From NCBI GenBank assembly GCA_947503575.1, contig CANNDZ010000001.1:186001-250000 (forward strand): 64,000 nucleotides of DNA, written 5' to 3'. Shown one piece after another: positions 14,526 to 60,054 of this stretch. The notes under the pieces are model-generated. The model did no database searches and was not told the origin of the DNA. It was given only the letters and a program-made list of their open reading frames with translations. Within the stretch, counting starts at the first letter, position 1, and each line of letters opens with the position of its first letter. This DNA comes from an uncultured Kordiimonas sp. GTDB taxonomy: Bacteria > Pseudomonadota > Alphaproteobacteria > Sphingomonadales > Kordiimonadaceae. A program made the position numbers and the translations under genes.

Positions 14526-14726
14526 TAAAATGAGGGAATTTATCGAAATTTGGCGGCTTTTTCTTATGAAGTCGGCTAATTTGGTACCATTTCGGTATTA
14601 TTATCTGTGTCGCCAGCGCCAAAACAGGCTGTTAAGGTGCCGCCACACTATAAACAACGCCCGGCCAAAGGGCGAATCAACGCATACCGTTTGTCTACAG
14701 GGCGTTCGGCGTTTCAGGAGGCGCAG

Positions 14727-15557
14727 GTGACCATCGTTCAACTTATACTTTTGGCGCTGGTGCAAGGCATCACGGAATTCCTGCCTATCAGCTCATCAGG
14801 TCATCTTGTGCTGGTGCCCGCGCTAACCGGCTGGCCGGATCAGGGCCTGTTGATGGATGTTGCTGTGCATGTCGGCACGCTGGTGGCGGTCTTGTTGTAT
14901 TTTTGGCGTGACACAAAAGGGCTGGCGCTCGCGGGGTTTGGCAGTATCGGCATCAAACCGGCGCGCCGGCTGGTTGAAGGCACCCCTTACCTGAAAATTT
15001 TTTGGGCACTGGTCATCGGCACCATCCCCATGGTGATTGTCGGCGGGCTGATGGTGGCCACCGACGCCAGCGACATGTTGCGCAGCGCAGAAGTGATTGC
15101 CACCACCTCAATCGTGTTTGGCATTCTTCTTTATATTGCTGACAAACGGGGCGACAGCCACAAAACCACTGATGACATCACGATCAAGCCTGCGTTGCTG
15201 ATCGGCCTTGCGCAAGTGTTGGCGCTCATCCCCGGCACCAGCCGCGCGGGCGTAACCATGACCGCCTCGCGTCTGCTCGGCTTTTCGCGCACCGAATCAG
15301 CGCGTTTTTCCATGCTGCTGTCGATCCCGGCAATCATTGCGTCCGGTACGGCAACAGGGTTGAAAGCCATGGAGGAAGCAACCGCGGCCCAGCTTGGCGA
15401 CGCGGCCATCGGCGCGGTGCTGTCGTGCGTGGCAGCGCTGGTGGCCATTCACTTCCTGATGCGATGGCTCACCCACGCCAGCATGACCGTGTTTGTCGTC
15501 TACCGGGTTTTGTTGGGGCTGGGCCTGTTTGCGCTCATTGGCGCTGGTATCCTGTAG
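14727..15557 (+). CDS. uppP: Undecaprenyl-diphosphatase
   Basis: Integral membrane enzyme (BacA family) that dephosphorylates undecaprenyl pyrophosphate, recycling the lipid carrier for peptidoglycan and glycan synthesis; overexpression of the family gives bacitracin resistance. Both catalytic signatures are present: QGITEFLPISSSGHLVL near the N-terminus and PGTSRAGVTMTASRLLGFSR in the second half, within about eight hydrophobic segments. The GTG at 14727 is chosen because AGGAGG ends 5 bases before it and the protein then begins at the first membrane helix; an earlier in-frame start at 14607 would add 40 unrelated residues. 276 residues, typical. Confidence 0.95.
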   Translation: MTIVQLILLALVQGITEFLPISSSGHLVLVPALTGWPDQGLLMDVAVHVGTLVAVLLYFWRDTKGLALAGFGSIGIKPARRLVEGTPYLKIFWALVIGTIPMVIVGGLMVATDASDMLRSAEVIATTSIVFGILLYIADKRGDSHKTTDDITIKPALLIGLAQVLALIPGTSRAGVTMTASRLLGFSRTESARFSMLLSIPAIIASGTATGLKAMEEATAAQLGDAAIGAVLSCVAALVAIHFLMRWLTHASMTVFVVYRVLLGLGLFALIGAGIL

Positions 15558-15655
15558 GCCCAAGAATCTGAATAGCCTGCACCGATGCCCCTTGACAGGG
15601 TCGCGGCAGCGGGCTAAATCCCGCCAACCAGTTTTAAAGCTGCCCTCAATGAAAT

Positions 15656-15743
15656 GCCCAGATGGCGGAATTGGTAGACGCGCTAGCTTCAGGTGCTAGT
15701 GTCCTTTATGGACGTGGAGGTTCGAGTCCTCTTCTGGGCACCA
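15656..15743 (+). tRNA. tRNA-Leu (anticodon CAG)
   Basis: 88-base cloverleaf with encoded CCA. Acceptor GCCCAGA pairs perfectly with TCTGGGC, discriminator A then CCA. Anticodon stem CTAGC/GCTAG holds loop TTCAGGT, giving anticodon CAG for CUG codons. A long variable arm (GTGTCCTTTATGGACGT) marks it as class II, and the T arm carries GGTTCGAGTCC. Confidence 0.97.
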
Positions 15744-15769
15744 TTTCTTCTTTTCTCTCTAACTTTCTT

Positions 15770-15890
15770 CATGTCATACCGCGACTTGATCGCCGTATCC
15801 ACTGGCACCAACTGAGCAGCCTGCATTGCTTATGGACCCCGTGGTCAAGCCACGGGGTGACCGCTTTGGGGTATCCGATAACGGGTGACA
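15770..15890. repeat. Alphaproteobacterial-type palindromic intergenic repeat
   Basis: Between the tRNA and the glycosyltransferase gene lie units resembling the dispersed palindromes common in alphaproteobacterial genomes. One begins GTCATACCGCGACTTGAT; a second has a perfect 9-bp stem ACCCCGTGG-TCAAG-CCACGGGGT (15836-15858); a third is a degenerate unit at 15869-15888 around CCGATAACGG. Dispersal elsewhere cannot be checked in this window. Confidence 0.55.
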
Positions 15891-15925
15891 AGTATGTATG
15901 ATGTAAAGCCGAGTTGGACCCTATC

Positions 15926-17092
15926 TTACGCGCTGTAACCATCCCTTGATGGGGCTTGGCGTATGGGGTGCGTAGTGATGGTCTGCGGGCTTGCGCCTGC
16001 CTGCAGGGCGGCAAGATTGGTTTTTGCGTCCAGATACGCGGGGTTAAGTGCCAGCGCCATTTGAAGGCTCAGCGTTGCCGCAGAGGGGTCCCCGCATGCC
16101 GCAAAACACACCGCGACATTATTATAAACCTCTGGGCGTTCCAGATGGTTGCCCAAGGGCTCCAGAATGTTTAGGGCATCCGAAAAATACCCGCATTTGG
16201 CCGCCGCAGTGCCAGCAAAAAATGCGCTGATGTGGCGGGCTGGCGCGCCGTAGGGCGCCACCATGTCTTCTGCCGCCGCCGCCTTTGTCGCGAATGTCAG
16301 TGCAGCATCAAAATCCTGCTCAAACATGGCTTTGCTTGCCAAAACGCAGGCCGCATCACCCGCTGAAAACCCTGACCTTTCCAGCGCGTCCTCAAGCCAA
16401 CCGGCCTTATGTTTCCGCAGGGCCTGTGCCGTGTAGTCCATCGTTTTTTCACGGTTGCGCGAAATCGTGTTGTCATAATGATAATAATGGTAGCTCGGGT
16501 CTGTGTTCAGGGAGATGGACAAGCCGCCCGCAATCGCCCGCAGTAAAAAATCATAATCCTCCACGCAGGTGAAGTCGGGGTCATAGCCTATGGCCCTTGC
16601 GGCTGTTGTGCGAAACCCGGCGTGCAGGGAGGGCAGCCAGTTGCGCTCAAACGAGCGGTATAGGGCGCCCGGCCCGCGCATAAAGTCGGGGATGCCTGTC
16701 GTCTTGATCACCTCGCCGCTGGCGCCGTCCAGCAAATCACAAGCGGCAAAAACCAAATCAGCACCCGCGTCCAAAGCGTCAACCATATTGTGAAGGTGGC
16801 TTTCACCAAACGCGTCATCCGCATCCAGCCACACACCATAGGGTGTTTTGATATGCTGAAGCGCGAGCGAGCGCACATGCCCCACCGACAGGGGCGTGTT
16901 GTTTTCGACAACCTGCAGCGCACCGCCGCCTGCGGCCTTGGCCAACTTGATGGTTGCGTCATCGCTGGCATCATCCACCAAAAGGATGGTAGCCGCCCCA
17001 GCCGCCAAAGCGCTTTCAACGGCACGAACAATGGTCGCTTCTGCGTTGCGGGCAACGATAGCAACCGTAATGCTGTCAAATGATTTTGGCAT
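15926..17092 (-). CDS. Family 2 glycosyltransferase with C-terminal TPR-like region
   Basis: Predicted GT-A glycosyltransferase of 388 residues. Residues 8-110 show the family 2 nucleotide-sugar fold: TVAIVARNAEATI, ILLVDDASDD and the metal-binding WLDADDAFG (DADD at 90-93). VEDYDFLLR near residue 180 is the usual acceptor/catalytic-base region. The last third (about 265-370) is helical with TPR-like spacing (PEVYNNVAVCFAACGDPSAATLSLQMALALNP), similar in layout to flagellin or surface-glycan transferases of this class. Donor and acceptor unknown. It is followed upstream on the same strand by the thioesterase gene, 45 bases away. Confidence 0.82.
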   Translation of the reverse strand: MPKSFDSITVAIVARNAEATIVRAVESALAAGAATILLVDDASDDATIKLAKAAGGGALQVVENNTPLSVGHVRSLALQHIKTPYGVWLDADDAFGESHLHNMVDALDAGADLVFAACDLLDGASGEVIKTTGIPDFMRGPGALYRSFERNWLPSLHAGFRTTAARAIGYDPDFTCVEDYDFLLRAIAGGLSISLNTDPSYHYYHYDNTISRNREKTMDYTAQALRKHKAGWLEDALERSGFSAGDAACVLASKAMFEQDFDAALTFATKAAAAEDMVAPYGAPARHISAFFAGTAAAKCGYFSDALNILEPLGNHLERPEVYNNVAVCFAACGDPSAATLSLQMALALNPAYLDAKTNLAALQAGASPQTITTHPIRQAPSRDGYSA

Positions 17093-52191: not shown

Positions 52192-53445
52192 TTAAACTTT
52201 GTAATACCTTAGCAATTCCTGTGCCGAAAAGATGCCTTCATCACTAAAGAACGCTGAACTTGGAGAGTTCAACTGATCGACTTGGTCAACCACTTTAGAT
52301 AGATAGGCCTCCAAGGCACCTCTACGGCACATCAATGATGACGGAAAGGCATAGCGATGAAAAACCCAATTCAGAAAAGCCTTTGCCTTCATAGAGGGTG
52401 GGTTGTCAATTGACTGGCCAATATGTTCGTAGGTCGGCGTATAATGTCGATAATAGCATTCCGGACTGGTAAACCAATGCTTGCCCCAGAAAACCGCCTG
52501 TTGTCCAACCGTTGATGTCACCGCGATCACACCGTCCGCGTAGGGAACCAGCATTTGGGTATAATATGCCTCATATAAATGGCCCGGCACCAACACAAGG
52601 TTGGAATACGCTGATTGCAGCTTCTGCACCCGATGCTCAGAAATGCCATGATCTGGTCGATTGTGCACTCTAGGACAAAACACAATTGCCACGTGAGGTG
52701 GGGTATGCCGAAGCACGTCTTCCAGCAAATCCCCTATCCTTTCAAACCGGGTGTACGGCGAGTAGAAAAAGTTTTGATACTGAGCAGCAAACAGCAGAAC
52801 ACCGCCGCCAAACTGCATACGAACTGACCTTATAAACTGCTCCCATGGACCGTCGAATTGATAAAATGCTGGCTTCAGTGCCGCCCGGATATCTGAGATC
52901 ACGCCTTCAAGGCGATGACCGCTATCAAGGATACTTTTTGAGAACTTACCGACAACGCTATCTGCTCCGTATGCCAAAGGGTCGAAAAAAACTGTTGGGG
53001 GGTAGGGCATTCGATTTAAAGGACCTACTTCCATGTAAAAAGCATGGGTTGACGGCAACATAGCCTGAACCCAGGGTTCCGGCATACGGTGAACTACAGC
53101 GTCAGGCCAAAACCCGCACGGGAATACACGCGCCAATATGATATTGATCCTCGACTTTTGCTGATTACGACTGCGAAGATAAACAACATCCTCATCGCCA
53201 ATATAATGTATATTTTCGCTCGAAACCGCCTTCATGGGGCCAACCTGAGTAGCTTCTTCCACTAGTGGCGCCAACGCATCACCAAATAGAAAATGTACCT
53301 CAAGACCGCTGTTTGTGTTGTTTGAGGCCACTTGATTCCAGAATGGAACAAAAGCCCACAGGTTCATTTCCTGGCCGCGACGATGATTGTCCAAGTGGAA
53401 CTGAATAACGCTCCTAGGCATATAATGAATAATCAGGACTTTCAT
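52192..53445 (-). CDS. Capsule-type transferase-like protein, paralogue B
   Basis: 417-residue protein of unknown exact family, paralogous to the adjacent upstream gene. Shared features: start MKVLIIHYMPRSVIQF; YSPYTRFERIGDLLEDVL; AIVFCPRVHN; and YYTQMLVPYADGVIAVTSTV followed by G-QAVFWGKHWFTSPECYY. The last resembles the donor-binding signature (STVG...A...GK) of capsule-synthesis GT-B proteins such as KpsS/KpsC and related CDP-glycerol or sialyl-type transferases. ATG 53445 is chosen because AGGA lies 9 bases upstream; earlier frames start at 53490. Inferred role: adding a residue to a surface glycan. Confidence 0.62.
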   Translation of the reverse strand: MKVLIIHYMPRSVIQFHLDNHRRGQEMNLWAFVPFWNQVASNNTNSGLEVHFLFGDALAPLVEEATQVGPMKAVSSENIHYIGDEDVVYLRSRNQQKSRINIILARVFPCGFWPDAVVHRMPEPWVQAMLPSTHAFYMEVGPLNRMPYPPTVFFDPLAYGADSVVGKFSKSILDSGHRLEGVISDIRAALKPAFYQFDGPWEQFIRSVRMQFGGGVLLFAAQYQNFFYSPYTRFERIGDLLEDVLRHTPPHVAIVFCPRVHNRPDHGISEHRVQKLQSAYSNLVLVPGHLYEAYYTQMLVPYADGVIAVTSTVGQQAVFWGKHWFTSPECYYRHYTPTYEHIGQSIDNPPSMKAKAFLNWVFHRYAFPSSLMCRRGALEAYLSKVVDQVDQLNSPSSAFFSDEGIFSAQELLRYYKV

Positions 53446-53493
53446 TTCAGGCATTCCTAGCTGTCGGGGTCTTGTGCCCAAAGCGCGCAAGTA

Positions 53494-54795
53494 TCACAGT
53501 GAGATAATCTCAATCACTTGCCCACGATTATGCCGATCATCGATGCGCGCGTAGCAGGAAAGGACCTGATTAAAGAAGCCGGGGACACCCTCTAGTTCTT
53601 CTCGCAACAAGCGCAGATAGCTGGCGGGACTTTCAGCCCTGCTTATATGCGCTACTGACAATATAGCGGCCAGCAGTTCCGGATTTGATAACATCAGATT
53701 TGGTATCCAGAAATACTGGGTCATCCAATTGACATAGTCGACTGTGTCCTTTGATACGCCGGTTTTAAGGCTGCTTTTGATGTGCTCATAACTTGGAGTA
53801 ATATCAACATAAAAGCATTCTGGGCTTGTAAACCAGTGCTTACCCCACAACGCAGCCTGGAGGCCAACTGTTGACGTAACAGCAATCACGCCGTCCACAT
53901 GCGGCACCAGCATTTGCGTATAGTATGGCCACATCAGGTCTTCGGGAAACACCAGAACATTGTCATGGCGGGCTTGCAGGTCTGCCCAGTCGGCATACGA
54001 TATGGGGAAGGCCCGGAAGTTGTGCGCGCGCGGGCAAATGACTATGGCGGTATCGGTGGGGCAGTGGTCCAGGGCATCCTGCACCAACTCCAGCAAAGAC
54101 GGGTGTCGTGTATAAGGACTGTATCGCGGTGATGCGTACTGTACTGCTAACAGTAAAGTATTTTTGTAGCGGGCCCCTATCTGATCCAGATACTCTCGCG
54201 CGCCTGCTGGTATGGCATCGAACGCTGGAGTAGCGAGAGAGCGTATTTTATCCAGCAAATCAGGAAGGCCAGATGTTAGGTCGTTCTTCGCCTCCACAAA
54301 ACCTGGCACAATTTTCTCACAATCGAATGAGTAAGGGTCGAAGAAAAAGGTGCCAGGATAAGGAGGCCGCGAATAAGCTCCGACCTCAATCCCGAGTAGG
54401 GCTGCATCTGGAAACAGACTGCGCAACCTTTTCAGGTCGTCGTGCGCCACAATAATGTCAGGGCAATAATCGCCCATTCCGAAAGACGTAAGAAGGCAAG
54501 CATTATCATCTGCGTTGGAAGCGTCATCCCAAAGGGCATCGAAATCCTGCTCCATAAGGCAGTATTTTTCAGCCCTTCTTACATTCTGCAGTTTTTCTAG
54601 TGCTTTTTGCCGGTCAAGAAGGGGAAGAAAGGCCTCGCTCAGCAAATACCGGATTTCTATGTCAAATGATTCCAACTTTGGGGACATCCGGTTCCAAAAC
54701 CCCAAGAAACCCCAATAGTTTTCTTCCTGCCCTTCAACACTGAGCATTTGGTTGATCGTCGAAGAATGCATTGTATGAACAACCAACACTTTCAT
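53494..54795 (-). CDS. Capsule-type transferase-like protein, paralogue A
   Basis: 433 residues, first gene of the minus-strand operon (GAGG 6 bases before ATG 54795). It matches paralogue B along its length: MKVLVVHTMHSSTINQ, SPYTRHPSLLELVQDALDH, AIVICPRAHNF, YYTQMLVPHVDGVIAVTSTV then G-QAALWGKHWFTSPECFY. The middle parts differ more, so the duplication is old. GT-B-like donor-site signature as in capsule polysaccharide proteins; no transmembrane segment. Function inferred only from the motif and from sugar-nucleotide neighbours. Confidence 0.65.
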   Translation of the reverse strand: MKVLVVHTMHSSTINQMLSVEGQEENYWGFLGFWNRMSPKLESFDIEIRYLLSEAFLPLLDRQKALEKLQNVRRAEKYCLMEQDFDALWDDASNADDNACLLTSFGMGDYCPDIIVAHDDLKRLRSLFPDAALLGIEVGAYSRPPYPGTFFFDPYSFDCEKIVPGFVEAKNDLTSGLPDLLDKIRSLATPAFDAIPAGAREYLDQIGARYKNTLLLAVQYASPRYSPYTRHPSLLELVQDALDHCPTDTAIVICPRAHNFRAFPISYADWADLQARHDNVLVFPEDLMWPYYTQMLVPHVDGVIAVTSTVGLQAALWGKHWFTSPECFYVDITPSYEHIKSSLKTGVSKDTVDYVNWMTQYFWIPNLMLSNPELLAAILSVAHISRAESPASYLRLLREELEGVPGFFNQVLSCYARIDDRHNRGQVIEIISL

Positions 54796-54973: not shown

Positions 54974-56023
54974 GTGAAAATATTCATTAACGGGTTTGGA
55001 CGCATCGGAAGAACAGTCGCCAGAATCATCCTTGAACAGGACGGCGTCGACCTTGCCGGCATCAATGACATTGTCGATAGCCCACAAAATCTCGCCTATT
55101 TGTTGAAGTATGACAGTGTGTATGGTCGCTTGAACAGTGATGTGTTTGCCTCAGGTGCGCAAAATCAACTTCAAATAGGCGGACAAGCCATTCCTGTTTT
55201 CTCCCAGAAAAGCATGACTGATATAGACTGGGGGGCGCTTGACGTTGACATCATCATCGACAGCAGCGGCGTTCAGTCCAACGTGGACTGTGCTGCAAGA
55301 TTGTCTGCTCTGTCTGGCCTAAAGGGTGTTGTCATCACCCATGCACCGTCCAGCGGCATCGACCGCACCATTATTATGGGCGTGAATGAGTCTGACTATC
55401 GGCCAATGACAGACTTTGTGGTTTCCAGCAGTATCTGCGATGCCAACGCTATCGCTCACCCACTCAAAATGGTGGAAGAGCAGTTTGGCATTGAGACTGG
55501 CTCCGTTACGACTATGCACCCCTGGCTTGCATACCAGAATCTTACAGACTCCGCGGTTGCAGGACAGTCTGACCCAGGGCATTTCTGGCCTGATTATTCC
55601 CTGGGGCGCAGCAGCGTTGGCGCTCTCATCCCCAAAAACACAACAGCAGTAAAAGCGCTTAGGCCAGTGCTGCCAAACTTAACCGACCGTTTAAGCAGTT
55701 TCTCCTACCGAATTCCTACGTCTGTTGTCACGAGCGCAGATCTGACTCTTGTGTGCAAAAGGCCGGTGAGCCAAAAGGCTCTGGTAGACGCATTCACAAA
55801 CACATTTACCGGCTCGCGGTATGTGGGCCTTAACTATGAAAGCCTAGTTTCCGTTGATTATGAACGTAGTCCCTATTCCGCAACCATAGATATGCAGTGG
55901 CTTGAGGCTGGGGCCGGCAATTTAGCAAAAATAATTGTCTGGTATGATAATGAATGGGGTTATGCGCAGCGGGCGTTAGATACAGCAAGACTTATGGTCT
56001 CCAAAAAGGGTAATGCATCATGA
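54974..56023 (+). CDS. GAPDH-like dehydrogenase with altered active-site loop
   Basis: 349-residue type I glyceraldehyde-3-phosphate dehydrogenase homologue (INGFGRIGRTVARI at the start, YLLKYDSVYGR, WYDNEWGYAQRALDTA at the end). The catalytic Cys155 and His182 are kept, but the normally invariant SNASCTTN loop reads SSSICDAN, losing the Thr pair that contacts the substrate phosphate. It is the first gene of a tight operon with sugar-activation enzymes, starting at GTG 54974 and overlapping the next gene (ATGA). I infer a changed aldehyde substrate (erythrose-4-phosphate-type or unphosphorylated) rather than glycolysis. Confidence 0.8.
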   Translation: MKIFINGFGRIGRTVARIILEQDGVDLAGINDIVDSPQNLAYLLKYDSVYGRLNSDVFASGAQNQLQIGGQAIPVFSQKSMTDIDWGALDVDIIIDSSGVQSNVDCAARLSALSGLKGVVITHAPSSGIDRTIIMGVNESDYRPMTDFVVSSSICDANAIAHPLKMVEEQFGIETGSVTTMHPWLAYQNLTDSAVAGQSDPGHFWPDYSLGRSSVGALIPKNTTAVKALRPVLPNLTDRLSSFSYRIPTSVVTSADLTLVCKRPVSQKALVDAFTNTFTGSRYVGLNYESLVSVDYERSPYSATIDMQWLEAGAGNLAKIIVWYDNEWGYAQRALDTARLMVSKKGNAS

Positions 56024-56766
56024 TCGTTGGTTTGTTGATCGGCAAAGACAAAAGCACAGGCGTGCCAGGCAAAAACTACCGCGAAATTGTTGGTAGGCCT
56101 ATGTGTGAGTATGGCTTTATAGCAGCGGAAGCTGTAGGGCTTGACAAGGTCTTTGTGTCTACCGACAGCCCCACAATCAAGGCGGTGGGCGAACGTCACA
56201 AAGCCAGCATCATTGATCGCCCTGCAGAGCTCGCACAGCCGGACAGCCTAACCGAAGATGTGTTGAAACATGCCACCCATGAAATTGAGGCAAGCTTGGG
56301 CGAAAAGCCTGACATCGTTGTTCTGTTGTTCGCTAATAACCCGGCCGTTGATGTTGACTTGGTGCGGGAAGGCATAGAAAGTCTTAAAGCAGACTCCTCG
56401 CTTGATTCTGCTTTCTCTGTCAGCCGCTACGATATGTTTTCGCCAGTGCGCGCCAGAACAGTTAGTGCGGAAGGTATGATTGAAAACTATATTCCGCAAT
56501 CCGAACTGTCGGAAACCGCAAGCTCCATACGGTCCAGCGAGGGCGGCATCTATTTTTGTGATCTATCTGTGCAAGTTATGCGTTGGTCATGCTTTGAAAA
56601 CATGGATCAAGGCCCCCAACCTTTCCAGTGGATGGGACATCGTTCCAAAGCACTATTCAATAATTACGGCTTCGATGTTGACAGTGAGTGGCAGTTTGTC
56701 GTGATTGAACACTGGTTAAAGGAACGTGGTTTTACGGCAAAAGCAGTTCCTAATGGTTATGAATAA
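56020..56766 (+). CDS. Acylneuraminate cytidylyltransferase family protein (CMP-sugar synthetase)
   Basis: 248 residues, NeuA/KdsB-type fold that activates a ulosonic acid with CTP. N-terminal P-loop-like GLLIGKDKSTGVPGKNYREI and the next strand VFVSTDSPTIKAVGERH match the family; LLFANNPAVDVDLVREGI replaces the more usual LQPTSPLR sequence, and FDVDSEWQFVVIEHWL resembles the C-terminal IDT/E-D region. The variation suggests a substrate other than sialic acid or Kdo. Overlaps the upstream gene by ATGA; the aldolase follows after 9 bases. Confidence 0.8.
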   Translation: MIVGLLIGKDKSTGVPGKNYREIVGRPMCEYGFIAAEAVGLDKVFVSTDSPTIKAVGERHKASIIDRPAELAQPDSLTEDVLKHATHEIEASLGEKPDIVVLLFANNPAVDVDLVREGIESLKADSSLDSAFSVSRYDMFSPVRARTVSAEGMIENYIPQSELSETASSIRSSEGGIYFCDLSVQVMRWSCFENMDQGPQPFQWMGHRSKALFNNYGFDVDSEWQFVVIEHWLKERGFTAKAVPNGYE

Positions 56767-56775
56767 AGGGCCTTT

Positions 56776-57558
56776 ATGATGGCAAACCAAAGCCCCACGC
56801 AGACATTACGCGATCGCATGAAAGAAAGCGGTATAGTGATCGGCACATGGAACCTGCTGGATGACCCTGATGCGGTCGAAATTATGTGCAATGCAGGCAT
56901 GGACTATATCATTCATGATATGGAGCATGGCACGCACTCGTTGCATAACATAAAGAACATCGTTCGAGCGGCCCATACACAAGATGCTGCAGCACTGGTG
57001 CGACCGCCAGGTATTGATTTTGGCCTAATTCAGAGGGTGTTAGACGCCGGGTGCGATGGCCTGATGGTGCCGAACATACAGTCTGTTGCAGATGCTGCAG
57101 CTGTTATTGACGCAGCATTATACCCACCGGAAGGCAACCGAGGACTATCCCCCTACACACGTGGTATGGGATATGATGGCAAGAACGTTGGGGCGCGGAT
57201 GCAAGCACGCAACTCGGCCTGCTTCATTGGCCTATTGATTGAAGGACACTCTGGTATTGCCTCCCTCAGCGACATTCTGGATCAGTATGGCGACCAAATA
57301 GATGTTATTTATATTGGCCTTTATGATCTCGCGAAACAGATCAACTCCACCGACGACCTGATGTCGGAGCAGATGCAGGCACACATCAAAGACATTATTC
57401 AGCAAGCGGATAAAATGGGTGTAGGTGTAGGTATGCTCGCAAATACGCCAGACATGGTTGGTTTTGCAAAGCAGCATGGTGTGCAGTTCATCGCCTTCAA
57501 GAATGATACGGCCATTTTACATGGTGCTGTCGAATCTATCGTTAAGGCGTGTCAGTGA
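56776..57558 (+). CDS. HpcH/HpaI-family class II aldolase
   Basis: 260-residue metal-dependent pyruvate aldolase of the HpcH/HpaI/CitE superfamily. Conserved elements: GTWNLLDDPDAVEIMCNAGMD, IIHDMEHGTHS with the base His, AALVRPPG (substrate Arg), a metal-ligand Glu in LLIEGHSGI, and IYIGLYDLAKQI with the Asp ligand. Homologues cleave or form 4-hydroxy-2-oxo acids such as 2-keto-3-deoxy-rhamnonate or -glucarate. Set between a CMP-sugar synthetase and a phosphatase, it probably builds a 3-deoxy-2-ulosonic acid from pyruvate and an aldehyde. Either ATG at 56776 or the next codon can be the start. Confidence 0.88.
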   Translation: MMANQSPTQTLRDRMKESGIVIGTWNLLDDPDAVEIMCNAGMDYIIHDMEHGTHSLHNIKNIVRAAHTQDAAALVRPPGIDFGLIQRVLDAGCDGLMVPNIQSVADAAAVIDAALYPPEGNRGLSPYTRGMGYDGKNVGARMQARNSACFIGLLIEGHSGIASLSDILDQYGDQIDVIYIGLYDLAKQINSTDDLMSEQMQAHIKDIIQQADKMGVGVGMLANTPDMVGFAKQHGVQFIAFKNDTAILHGAVESIVKACQ

Positions 57559-57571
57559 AGGAACGACGTGC

Positions 57572-58558
57572 GTGAAAATTGGTATCACAGACTATATTCC
57601 GGCACCTTTTACAATTGAGCGCGATGTCTTTGGAGAGGACGCTGAGCTTGTTTTTCTTGATGCGCTTAATGATGACGACTTCGATGCTGAAAAAATCGTT
57701 GACTTAGACGCGCTTCTTGTTTGGCACGCGCACATATCGAAAAATACGGCAAACGCCCTCAAGCGCTGCAAAATTGTCGTGCGGTACGGCGTCGGTTTTG
57801 ACAATATTGATGTGGCCGCCCTTGAGCAAAATGATATCCTCTTTTGCAACACCCCGGACTATGGAACCGAGGAAGTCGCTGACACAGCAGTTGCTATGGC
57901 TCTGGCGCTCTCTCGGGCCATTTTGGCTTATGACAATTTGGCAAGAACACTTCGGGACAATTGGCAGGAAAATACCATAGGCGGCATCAAACGGCTCGCC
58001 TACAGCACTGTCGGTATCGTTGGCGTTGGTAGAATAGGCTCTGCTGTTTTGAGGCGGTTCCGCCCCTTCGGACCGAGGTTACTGGGATACGACCCCTTCC
58101 TGCCAAGCGGCCATGAAAAAGCGCTAGGGTACAAACGCACCGATACGCTTACCGACCTTTTAGCTGAGGCCGATATCGTATCGCTGCATTGCCCGCTATC
58201 GTCCAAAACCGAGGGGTTGGTAGACGCAGAATTTTTGTCGCACATGAAAAAGGGGGCGATTTTGGTGAACAGTGCGCGGGGTGGCTTGACTCAAGACCTC
58301 GATAGCCTGCATGCAGCACTAAGAGAAGGTAGGCTGGGCGGTGTTGGCCTTGATGTTTTACCGCAGGAGCCACCAAAGAACGGTAGCCTTATCGACGCTT
58401 GGCGGGCGAATGACGCTGCGATAGCAGGGCGCGTTATTATCAACCCACATACTGCGTACTTTTCCGAGCAGGCATGGATGGAAATGCGCCAGAAAACAGC
58501 CGAAACAGCGCTATCTTACCTGCAACACGGACACATCAGAAACCGGATAAGCGTGTAG
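57572..58558 (+). CDS. D-isomer-specific 2-hydroxyacid dehydrogenase
   Basis: 328 residues, NAD-dependent reductase/oxidase of the phosphoglycerate dehydrogenase superfamily. NAD motif GVGRIG (151-156); catalytic Arg236 in NSARGGLTQ, Glu in LPQEPP near 266 and His293 in NPHTAYFSEQ; substrate loop VVRYGVGFDNIDV. Start GTG 57572 has AAGGAA 8 bases upstream; a longer frame from 57458 lies within the aldolase gene. The combination with a GAPDH-like enzyme recalls the Epd-PdxB pair of pyridoxal synthesis, here in a sugar operon. Confidence 0.88.
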   Translation: MKIGITDYIPAPFTIERDVFGEDAELVFLDALNDDDFDAEKIVDLDALLVWHAHISKNTANALKRCKIVVRYGVGFDNIDVAALEQNDILFCNTPDYGTEEVADTAVAMALALSRAILAYDNLARTLRDNWQENTIGGIKRLAYSTVGIVGVGRIGSAVLRRFRPFGPRLLGYDPFLPSGHEKALGYKRTDTLTDLLAEADIVSLHCPLSSKTEGLVDAEFLSHMKKGAILVNSARGGLTQDLDSLHAALREGRLGGVGLDVLPQEPPKNGSLIDAWRANDAAIAGRVIINPHTAYFSEQAWMEMRQKTAETALSYLQHGHIRNRISV

Positions 58559-58567
58559 TAGGCTGAT

Positions 58568-59278
58568 ATGCAAAAAACCAGTACGCAACGAAACTGGGTG
58601 TTTGATTGTGATGGGGTATTGCTGAACTCGAACGAAGCAAAATACCAAGCAATGTTTGACGCGACCAGACCCTTTGGTGAAAAAGAGGCTCATGCGCTGG
58701 TTACTTACCATAGAGCACGCGGCGGCGTCGGGCGCGAGGTAAAGTTTAGGCATTTTTTTAAAACCATACTGGGCCGGGAAGACGATTTTACCCAAGACTA
58801 TGAACAGCTTTTAGCGCGCTATAGCCAGCTTGTTCAGGAATCATTGAAGAGCTGTGATGTAGCGCCCGCGCTTGATGAGGTAATGTCTGCTCTCAAACAG
58901 CTCAACGTTCAATCTTTTGTCATATCCGGAGCTGAACAAACTGAATTGCGCAGCCTCTTGAGACAAAAGAGCATCGACCAATATTTTGAGCGTGTTTTCG
59001 GTAGCCCACGGAGCAAAACACATTGGATGAAACGCATCTCAGACCAATACGGACCTGTTCAGGTATGCATTGGTGACAGCCAGCATGATTACGACGTTGC
59101 CCTGGAATGGGGCGCGCACTTCGTATTTATGTCGCGGTGGACTGAATGGCAAAACGGCGCGTCATTTCTGAAAGACCATGCCGCCATCACTGTTTTAGAC
59201 GACACGCGCGCACTTCTCAACCTGCTGCGGGAGATGCCGGAGACATTGGATCAAATCCCGGATCAAGGAACCCTGTAA
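58568..59278 (+). CDS. HAD-family hydrolase (sugar phosphatase-like)
   Basis: 236 residues with the four HAD motifs: I VFDCDGVLLNSN (nucleophile Asp13, Asp15), II VISGAEQTE, III Lys in RSKTHWM, and IV IGDSQHDYDVA. A helical C1 cap (about residues 20-90) is of the beta-phosphoglucomutase/phosphatase type. Position between ulosonate-type enzymes suggests dephosphorylation of a sugar acid phosphate before CMP activation, as KdsC and NeuB-pathway phosphatases do. TAATG overlap with the next gene. Confidence 0.85.
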   Translation: MQKTSTQRNWVFDCDGVLLNSNEAKYQAMFDATRPFGEKEAHALVTYHRARGGVGREVKFRHFFKTILGREDDFTQDYEQLLARYSQLVQESLKSCDVAPALDEVMSALKQLNVQSFVISGAEQTELRSLLRQKSIDQYFERVFGSPRSKTHWMKRISDQYGPVQVCIGDSQHDYDVALEWGAHFVFMSRWTEWQNGASFLKDHAAITVLDDTRALLNLLREMPETLDQIPDQGTL

Positions 59279-60054
59279 TGCCAGATGTGGCATGCATAAT
59301 TCAGGCTCGACGTCAGTCTTCGCGCTTACCCGATAAGATTTTCAAGACCTTAGGTTCAAAGCCTGCGCTTAAGCATGTGATTGACCGCTGCCATGCAATC
59401 GACGGGGTATCTCACGTCATTGTTGCTTCACCGGACGACCCGATAGAAGACCCGGTTGAAGAGCTTGCCCTGAAAGCCGGTGCCTTAAGCTTTCGTGGCG
59501 ATCCGCAGGACGTTTTGTCCCGATACTTTCACGCCCACCAGCTCGTTGACACCCCGCTTGTCATGCGCGTCACGGGGGATTGCCCGTTAATTGATCCAAC
59601 CTTGTGTTCCGAACTCATAAAAAAGGTGCACCAAGAAGGTGCCGATTACGGTGTCCTAGTGAATTGGCCGCACGGCCTTGATTGTGAAGTTTTCACGCGG
59701 GACCTGTTGCAGCGCGCGCACACTACCGCGCATCTAGACGTGGACAGAGAGCATGTGACGCTATGGATGAAAAAACAACCAAACCTTAAGCGCACAAACG
59801 TTGCCGCGCCTAACGGCGAAATGCATACCGGTAACCGCTGGGTTCTTGATTATCCAAAAGACCTCAAGTTTCTGCAGGCGCTTTTTGCGCAGTTTGACGG
59901 CCTGGGCTCAATGCCGGGGTGGCAGGAGGTAACTGATGTCCTGGAAAGGAACCCACACCTACGCGAGATCAACGCGGAATGCGAGCAAGCATGGGCCAGG
60001 CAGACGAAGCAGGTATATCACAAATCCAAACAACCTGCGCCGCGCAACTATTAG
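59278..60054 (+). CDS. SpsF-like cytidylyltransferase family protein
   Basis: 258 residues resembling SpsF/3-deoxy-manno-octulosonate cytidylyltransferase-like proteins: start IIQARRQSSRLPDKIFKTLG, VIDRCHAIDGVSHVIVASPDD, LSRYFHAHQLVDTPLVMRVT followed by GDCPLIDP, and RWVLDYPKDLKFLQALF. The frame extends upstream to 59146, but the ATG at 59278 overlaps the HAD stop and begins exactly at the family start. A second cytidylyltransferase in one operon is unusual. Last gene of the six-gene operon; no terminator hairpin was seen after it. Confidence 0.85.
   Translation: MPDVACIIQARRQSSRLPDKIFKTLGSKPALKHVIDRCHAIDGVSHVIVASPDDPIEDPVEELALKAGALSFRGDPQDVLSRYFHAHQLVDTPLVMRVTGDCPLIDPTLCSELIKKVHQEGADYGVLVNWPHGLDCEVFTRDLLQRAHTTAHLDVDREHVTLWMKKQPNLKRTNVAAPNGEMHTGNRWVLDYPKDLKFLQALFAQFDGLGSMPGWQEVTDVLERNPHLREINAECEQAWARQTKQVYHKSKQPAPRNY

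Follow-up and report, generated by a model that had tools for sequence, protein, structure and literature searches.

Six genes at positions 54974–60054 of the stretch examined here (64,000 nucleotides of contig CANNDZ010000001.1, positions 186,001–250,000, from an uncultured Kordiimonas sp.; hereafter the window) form a compact operon whose products may build and activate an acidic surface sugar. The six open reading frames (ORFs) are intact, all on the forward strand and arranged head to tail. The first (54974–56023) encodes a GAPDH-like dehydrogenase of a distinct type, termed ICD below (Pfam Gp_dh_N/C), and overlaps by 4 bases the second (56020–56766), which encodes CMPS, a cytidylyltransferase resembling NeuA, PseF and KdsB and belonging to a subfamily of its own (CTP_transf_3, 48 bits). 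After a gap of 9 bases comes ALD, a class II 2-keto-acid aldolase of the HpcH/HpaI family (56776–57558; PF03328, 77.6 bits against a cut-off of 25), and after a further 13 bases 2HADH, a D-2-hydroxyacid dehydrogenase with a GTG start (57572–58558; PF02826, 153.6 bits). These four genes are referred to as the core. Nine bases separate 2HADH from a HAD hydrolase of the HAD1 type, likely a phosphatase (58568–59278; HAD_2, 47.5 bits), which overlaps by 1 base an SpsF-like cytidylyltransferase (59278–60054; CTP_transf_3, 86.9 bits). Searches with 2HADH used the protein starting at 57578, which is two residues shorter than that from the GTG codon at 57572. The family assignments of all six proteins hold in both Pfam and NCBIfam, and none of the six reaches an NCBIfam cut-off. 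The gene set, families and tight spacing described in an initial annotation of this DNA are thus borne out.

The GAPDH-like protein was used to scan one genome per species across 84,980 species, and the best 80 loci were taken. The related set comprises 34 loci (L008, L011–L042 and L044), 33 of them at E ≤ 8e-71 with 37–50% identity, plus G059; it spans Pseudomonadota, Bacteroidota, Verrucomicrobiota, Myxococcota, Bacillota and Chloroflexota, among others. The control set consists of the other 47 loci, which carry other GAPDH genes (E ≥ 3e-64, 31–37% identity). The two sets were divided by E-value and not by identity, and the controls L048 and L053 also reach 37%. Neighbouring genes were counted with profiles built from the same related loci, which biases the counts upward; identical profiles were applied to the controls. 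Within 6 kb of the GAPDH gene, a cytidylyltransferase is present in 25 of the 34 related loci (one of them, in L040, a fragment) and in no control, 2HADH in 24 related loci against one control, and a HAD hydrolase of one of two types in 17 against none. The cytidylyltransferase of L020 fell under the 60-bit limit in these counts. An initial pass over whole loci, using the window proteins alone, gave 24/34 for 2HADH, 19/34 for CMPS and 9/34 for ALD, compared with 3/47, 0/47 and 0/47, respectively, in the controls. The association of these genes exceeds chance.

The core order GAPDH–CMPS–ALD–2HADH recurs in seven related loci (L008, L015, L016, L018, L019, L023 and L037) from at least three phyla. 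A HAD gene stands between the first two core genes in L015, L018 and L019, and a gene that reads as methyltransferase-like occupies this position in L023. The initial annotation had proposed a search for the same six-gene order in other genomes; the exact order was found in none of the 34 related loci, and the four-gene core alone recurs. No orthologue of the aldolase was found at E 1e-20 in 58 further genomes from the genus, family and order, in which two distant relatives show 29 and 25% identity. For the GAPDH-like gene, a search of 288 further genomes from the class at E 1e-75 turned up a single close relative (G059, 50% identity), and a search of 397 further genomes from the phylum at E 1e-110 turned up none. 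The wide spread across phyla together with the absence from close relatives points to horizontal transfer of the cassette. In plasmid and phage collections, aldolase matches showed at most 35.5% identity among the best 20 of 674 records, and GAPDH matches at most 37.3% among the best 15 of 266, 15 of 26 and 10 of 264 records, these GAPDH matches being named ordinary gap or epd genes or left unannotated; no matches were found in viral contigs.

The GAPDH-like protein scores 245 bits to GAPDH-I (cut-off 367) and 213 bits to erythrose-4-phosphate dehydrogenase (cut-off 539). The catalytic residues Cys155 and His182, together with Arg212 and Arg246, are kept in the window protein and in all 34 related loci. 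The window protein has Ile154, Asp156 and Leu185 at positions that hold Ser, Thr and Thr in most of the other GAPDHs examined. The motif around the catalytic cysteine is I-C-D in the window and in every related locus, as against S-C-T in 40, S-C-N in six and T-C-D in one of the 47 controls. A position that is Thr in 40 controls, and which we take to be Thr179, is Leu in all 34 related loci and in the other seven controls. The columns of Ser148, Thr150 and Gly209, taken here to be inorganic-phosphate-site residues of type I GAPDH, hold Ile, Asp and Thr or Ser in all 34 loci, so that this presumed phosphate site is not kept. In GAPDH enzymology the altered positions are contacts for inorganic phosphate and for the substrate phosphate. 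Because these positions are altered, the ICD-type enzyme is predicted to be a phosphate-independent dehydrogenase that would probably yield a free acid.

The ICD-type enzymes are a group defined by this signature, and a 46-sequence tree does not recover them as one clean clade: the controls, on long branches, join it at two or more points, and strict monophyly is not supported. Six control GAPDHs, mostly from Campylobacterota (L057, L058, L065, L081, L083 and L086), carry S-C-N with an H-P-L-L signature, and the five that were placed in the tree form a supported group. A cyanobacterial control (L055) has T-C-D with H-P-Y-L, near the signature of the cassette, and lies on a very long branch. 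In L028, L031, L032, L036 and L044 the ICD-type gene is accompanied by a 3-dehydroquinate-synthase-related enzyme and a short-chain dehydrogenase/reductase, and in four of these five loci by an NTP transferase as well; the one dehydroquinate-synthase-like protein scanned, from L032, scored 257 bits against a cut-off of 305. ICD-type GAPDH may serve more than one pathway, the second leading perhaps to a cyclitol or carba-sugar. The GAPDH genes of L032 and L036, from a SAR86 genome and a 'Heimdallarchaeota' metagenome-assembled genome, are nearly identical and stand in the same gene order, and contig misbinning may explain the archaeal record.

Membership of the aldolase in the HpcH/HpaI family is indicated by its PF03328 score and by its residues: D48, E50, H51, R76, E156 and D184, which we take to be the catalytic Asp/Glu/His/Arg set plus metal ligands, are invariant in ten of ten cassette aldolases. 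The closest sequence in the PDB is an HpcH/HpaI aldolase (3qz6), and the protein lies under all four equivalog cut-offs listed in NCBIfam. The aldolase is found within 6 kb of GAPDH in nine of the 34 related loci. A fumarylacetoacetate-hydrolase-like (FAH-like) enzyme is found in 12, where it replaces the aldolase or, in L020, accompanies it; the remaining related loci have neither by profile, and neither enzyme occurs in any of the 47 controls. All 12 aligned FAH-like proteins share an E-x-E motif and, further along, an Asp, and the one that was scanned, from L022, resembles HpaG (157 bits, cut-off 276). A further FAH-like protein in L013, missed by the profile, was recognized by reading. The aldolase that the initial annotation put in the place of the synthase is thus not present at all loci. 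Its donor may be pyruvate, as had been proposed, or hydroxypyruvate, and the reaction is presumed to run in the aldol direction. Use of hydroxypyruvate by HpcH aldolases is indicated by titles cited in a review (PMC7610986). In L020, a cassette from Balneolales, a phosphonopyruvate decarboxylase and an Fe-alcohol dehydrogenase lie directly after the aldolase (14710–17000).

CMPS exceeds the CTP_transf_3 cut-off and keeps the D-x-D and K-N motifs (over 22 aligned rows, K18-N19 and D221 never vary and D219 hardly does), and is predicted to be a CMP synthetase of the NeuA/KdsB type. The closest sequence in the PDB is NeuA (9ftb, 58.6 bits). Its score to PseF (TIGR03584) is 75.4 bits, under the cut-off of 205.7. 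NeuA-like proteins from three of the same loci are likewise distant from it, with 22–23% identity to the window protein. The phylogeny of CMPS was compared with the distribution of ALD and FAH over 16 loci, eight with ALD (including the window) and eight with FAH. In the CMPS tree the two groups are parted by one branch (100/100), so that a single change suffices, and none of 500 shuffles was as low. For the same loci the GAPDH tree needs three changes (15/500 shuffles as low) and the 2HADH tree four (64/500). The comparison left out L013, L014 and L035 (neither enzyme by profile), L020 (both), L021, L034, L038 and L039 (another cytidylyltransferase type), L040–L042, L011, L012 and L026, and the five dehydroquinate-synthase-type loci. 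In a larger CMPS tree ALD needs two changes, because L014, which is without ALD, nests inside. Since the CMPS tree splits by ALD or FAH and the 2HADH tree does not, the simplest reading is that CMPS recognizes a molecule whose form depends on ALD or FAH, with GAPDH and 2HADH as a shared front end.

In 2HADH, R234, E264 and H291 (numbered from 57578), which we take to be the Arg-Glu-His catalytic set of the D-2-hydroxyacid dehydrogenases, are invariant in 25 of 25 proteins. The protein lies under the NCBIfam cut-offs for PGDH (201 bits, cut-off 454) and PdxB (94.8 bits, cut-off 434). TIGR04326-type surface carbohydrate proteins are encoded directly after 2HADH in L013 (5619–7517; 436 bits, cut-off 250) and, with a score of only 64 bits, in L022 (16273–18264), and are candidate transferases for the product of the cassette. 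HAD homologues lie within 6 kb of an ICD-type GAPDH gene in L020, L021, L029, L034, L039 and L040. The SpsF-like gene has four matches in the fetched loci; those in L008, L024 and L010, the last from the same genome as the window, adjoin NeuB, and the weakest, in L020, does not. Activation is probably also the role of the SpsF-like enzyme, which, given that three of its four matches adjoin NeuB, may act on what a NeuB at another locus produces. The operon shares the SpsF type of its sixth gene with SpsE–SpsF pairs, in which NeuB stands beside an SpsF-like cytidylyltransferase, but the NeuB neighbour is missing in the window and no such pair is formed.

CMP-linked acidic sugars are common on bacterial surfaces, and the well-known ones start with a phosphoenolpyruvate (PEP)-dependent synthase. 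As the initial annotation stated, the operon has no such enzyme: neither NeuB (PF03102) nor the KdsA/DAHP type (PF00793) has a match in the window (C1:186001–250000). The genome contains one PF00793 match (C2:525181), with a strong CTP_transf_3 match no more than 600 bases away, and this is likely a KdsA/KdsB pair.

We give roughly even weight to the interpretation that the operon represents a horizontally spread surface-glycan cassette which makes and CMP-activates a sugar acid of the 2-keto (ulosonic) type without a PEP-dependent synthase of its own. From the gene families, the conserved catalytic residues, the recurrence of the core and the co-segregation of CMPS type with the aldolase or FAH-like enzyme, all of which are observed, we infer every reaction, direction, substrate and product in the following scheme. 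The ICD-type GAPDH would oxidize a phosphorylated aldehyde to the free acid without inorganic phosphate, in the manner of Epd. 2HADH, like PdxB and SerA, would turn a 2-hydroxy acid into a 2-keto acid, or act in the reverse direction, and the HAD enzyme would strip the phosphate. The final carbon skeleton would then arise when the HpcH aldolase couples an aldehyde to the enolate of a 2-keto acid, either pyruvate or hydroxypyruvate; in other lineages the FAH-like enzyme in the aldolase slot would give a different product. Finally, the NeuA-like CMPS would attach CMP to the resulting 2-keto acid for use by a glycosyltransferase.

Such a cassette would share with the CMP-Kdo and nonulosonate pathways (KdsA–KdsC–KdsB, NeuB–NeuA, PseI–PseF and LegI–LegF) a cytidylyltransferase of the NeuA/KdsB family, a HAD hydrolase and a polysaccharide setting. 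It differs in that its core lacks the PEP-dependent synthase and has the HpcH aldolase or FAH-like enzyme and two dehydrogenases instead. The pairing of a GAPDH-family with a D-2-hydroxyacid-dehydrogenase-family enzyme recalls Epd and PdxB of vitamin B6 synthesis as a functional analogy; the cassette enzymes, however, lie under the equivalog cut-offs, are coupled to a cytidylyltransferase and have other phosphate-site residues. The aldolase shares its fold family and catalytic residues with HpaI, GarL and the KDR aldolase YfaU, but falls below their cut-offs and is placed in a polysaccharide island.

Several observations weigh against this interpretation. By profile, ALD and FAH are both absent from L014, L035, L041 and L042, so a carbon–carbon bond-forming enzyme is not a constant part of the locus. 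L021 combines ALD with a different type of cytidylyltransferase, and L034, L038 and L039 combine FAH with that type; the CMPS link is limited to loci that have CMPS. The genome is not devoid of NeuB, as two NeuB-family matches are present elsewhere (C1:2273979 and C4:81125), and a nonulosonate could be supplied from there. The proposal of an undescribed CMP-activated sugar acid therefore gains from the recurrence of the cassette in polysaccharide loci and from the phylogenetic link between CMPS and the carbon–carbon enzyme, and is weakened by these two synthases and by the NeuB genes that adjoin the core in L008 and L015.

It is rather unlikely, in our view, that the cassette supplies a small hydroxy or keto acid which decorates, for instance as an acyl or ether group, a nonulosonate built by a NeuB from another locus, and that both cytidylyltransferases activate this nonulosonate. 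The genome does encode PseI (454 bits, cut-off 340) besides a second NeuB, and none of its proteins exceeds the PseF cut-off, the best match being CMPS at 75 bits. NeuB directly follows the core in two of the seven core loci (L008 and L015), in line with one part of the refuting condition set in the initial annotation, whose other part, a catabolic aldolase, is not supported. L008 further has LegB (513 bits, cut-off 475) and two NeuB genes, and its only activating enzymes by profile are CMPS and SpsF. A clear NeuB is found in 24 of the 34 related genomes. On the other hand, NeuB lies within 6 kb of GAPDH in only three of the 34 loci (L008, L015 and L024), five having it anywhere in the locus, the CMPS type follows ALD or FAH, and the second NeuB of the genome has an SpsF-like/PseG-like neighbour of its own. 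Ten genomes, many of them incomplete, lack a clear NeuB: no match at all was found in six, and in the other four only matches at E 7.5e-8 to 1.8e-11; because so many assemblies are incomplete, this absence is weak evidence. L019 and L037, two of the seven core genomes, are among those without a clear NeuB, which speaks for the preferred interpretation.

The neighbour just mentioned is a 587-residue protein with SpsF-like and PseG-like halves, encoded on the reverse strand of L010 (8133–10741) near genes that read as flagellin-like. It adjoins a short NeuB, and its PseG half scores 41.5 bits, under the cut-off. PseB is over its cut-off at C1:2264558, on the flagellin side, and L010 may hold an atypical version of a pseudaminic-type pathway. 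The presence of the SpsF-like/PseG-like protein, NeuB and PseB at this locus weakens the idea that CMPS is the missing PseF of the genome.

We consider it improbable that the acid activated by the cytidylyltransferase is a phosphorylated or phosphonate one and not a ulosonate, yielding a CDP-type donor from which a phosphodiester-linked residue would be added. The phosphonopyruvate decarboxylase after the L020 aldolase (492 bits, cut-off 312.5) and the adjacent Fe-alcohol dehydrogenase (Phn_Fe-ADH, 183.5 bits, under the cut-off of 423.7) would fit such a donor, as would a weak glycerophosphotransferase-like neighbour in L018 (19.5 bits, cut-off 22.1) and proteins after the core in L019 and L023 that read as GDPD-like, the one in L019 without an NCBIfam match. 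However, CMPS keeps the NeuA-type D-x-D and K-N motifs and has NeuA as its closest solved structure by sequence, and the cytidylyltransferase of L020 is of another type. A phosphonate pathway at L020 was also considered and rejected: no PEP mutase is found at this locus, and the sole PEP_mutase-family match in that genome is a 446-residue frame on another contig. Least probable is that the aldolase and dehydrogenases are catabolic, serving sugar-acid breakdown beside the cytidylyltransferases by chance, for although the named families matched by the aldolase (HpaI, GarL and KDR aldolase) are catabolic, the seven core loci from at least three phyla and the co-segregation of CMPS with the aldolase suggest that aldolase and CMP activation are tied to one product, which argues against catabolism.

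A broader form of the preferred interpretation, a CMP-activated 2-keto acid made without a PEP-dependent synthase, is possible, if doubtful. Under it the cassette would be a third general route to CMP-ulosonic acids, leading from an aldose phosphate through the phosphate-independent GAPDH and 2HADH to an interchangeable HpcH or FAH step and a variant-matched NeuA subfamily; the module would extend across bacteria and perhaps archaea, and its sugars would be chemically undescribed. A hexulosonic acid in the Escherichia coli K3 capsule, named in a reference title in PMC10433991, suggests that capsules can contain short ulosonic acids. A search of the full-text literature, which reached few subscription papers, found no description of this gene set, and an earlier description is possible. 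If the proposal is correct, a PEP-independent cassette with two interchangeable carbon–carbon enzymes would define an unrecognized class of surface sugars and a new function for GAPDH. An I-C-D GAPDH motif beside a NeuA-like gene would then serve as a genome marker for producing strains, many of which would be uncultured marine or subsurface microbes.

The operon sits at the end of a polysaccharide island of low third-position GC content (GC3), the rest of which lies upstream. GC3 is 0.48–0.58 in the island genes compared with 0.57–0.63 in the six flanking genes measured. The island includes a GDP-fucose synthase-like gene (429 bits, cut-off 500), and by reading of the ORF list its other genes are an epimerase, a UDP-sugar dehydrogenase, and FkbM-type and glycosyltransferase-like genes. 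Divergent from the operon, on the reverse strand, are a possible glycosyltransferase (52192–53490), with no Pfam match at E ≤ 1, and a possible capsule-type glycosyltransferase (53494–54795; Capsule_synth PF05159, 16.6 bits, under the cut-off of 20). Neither of these proteins, each of about 430 residues, has a confident match in Pfam or NCBIfam, and neither has a match at E 1e-3 among the ORFs of loci L008–L090. The two are paralogues, with 35% identity over 398 aligned positions, and are a candidate new glycosyltransferase family.

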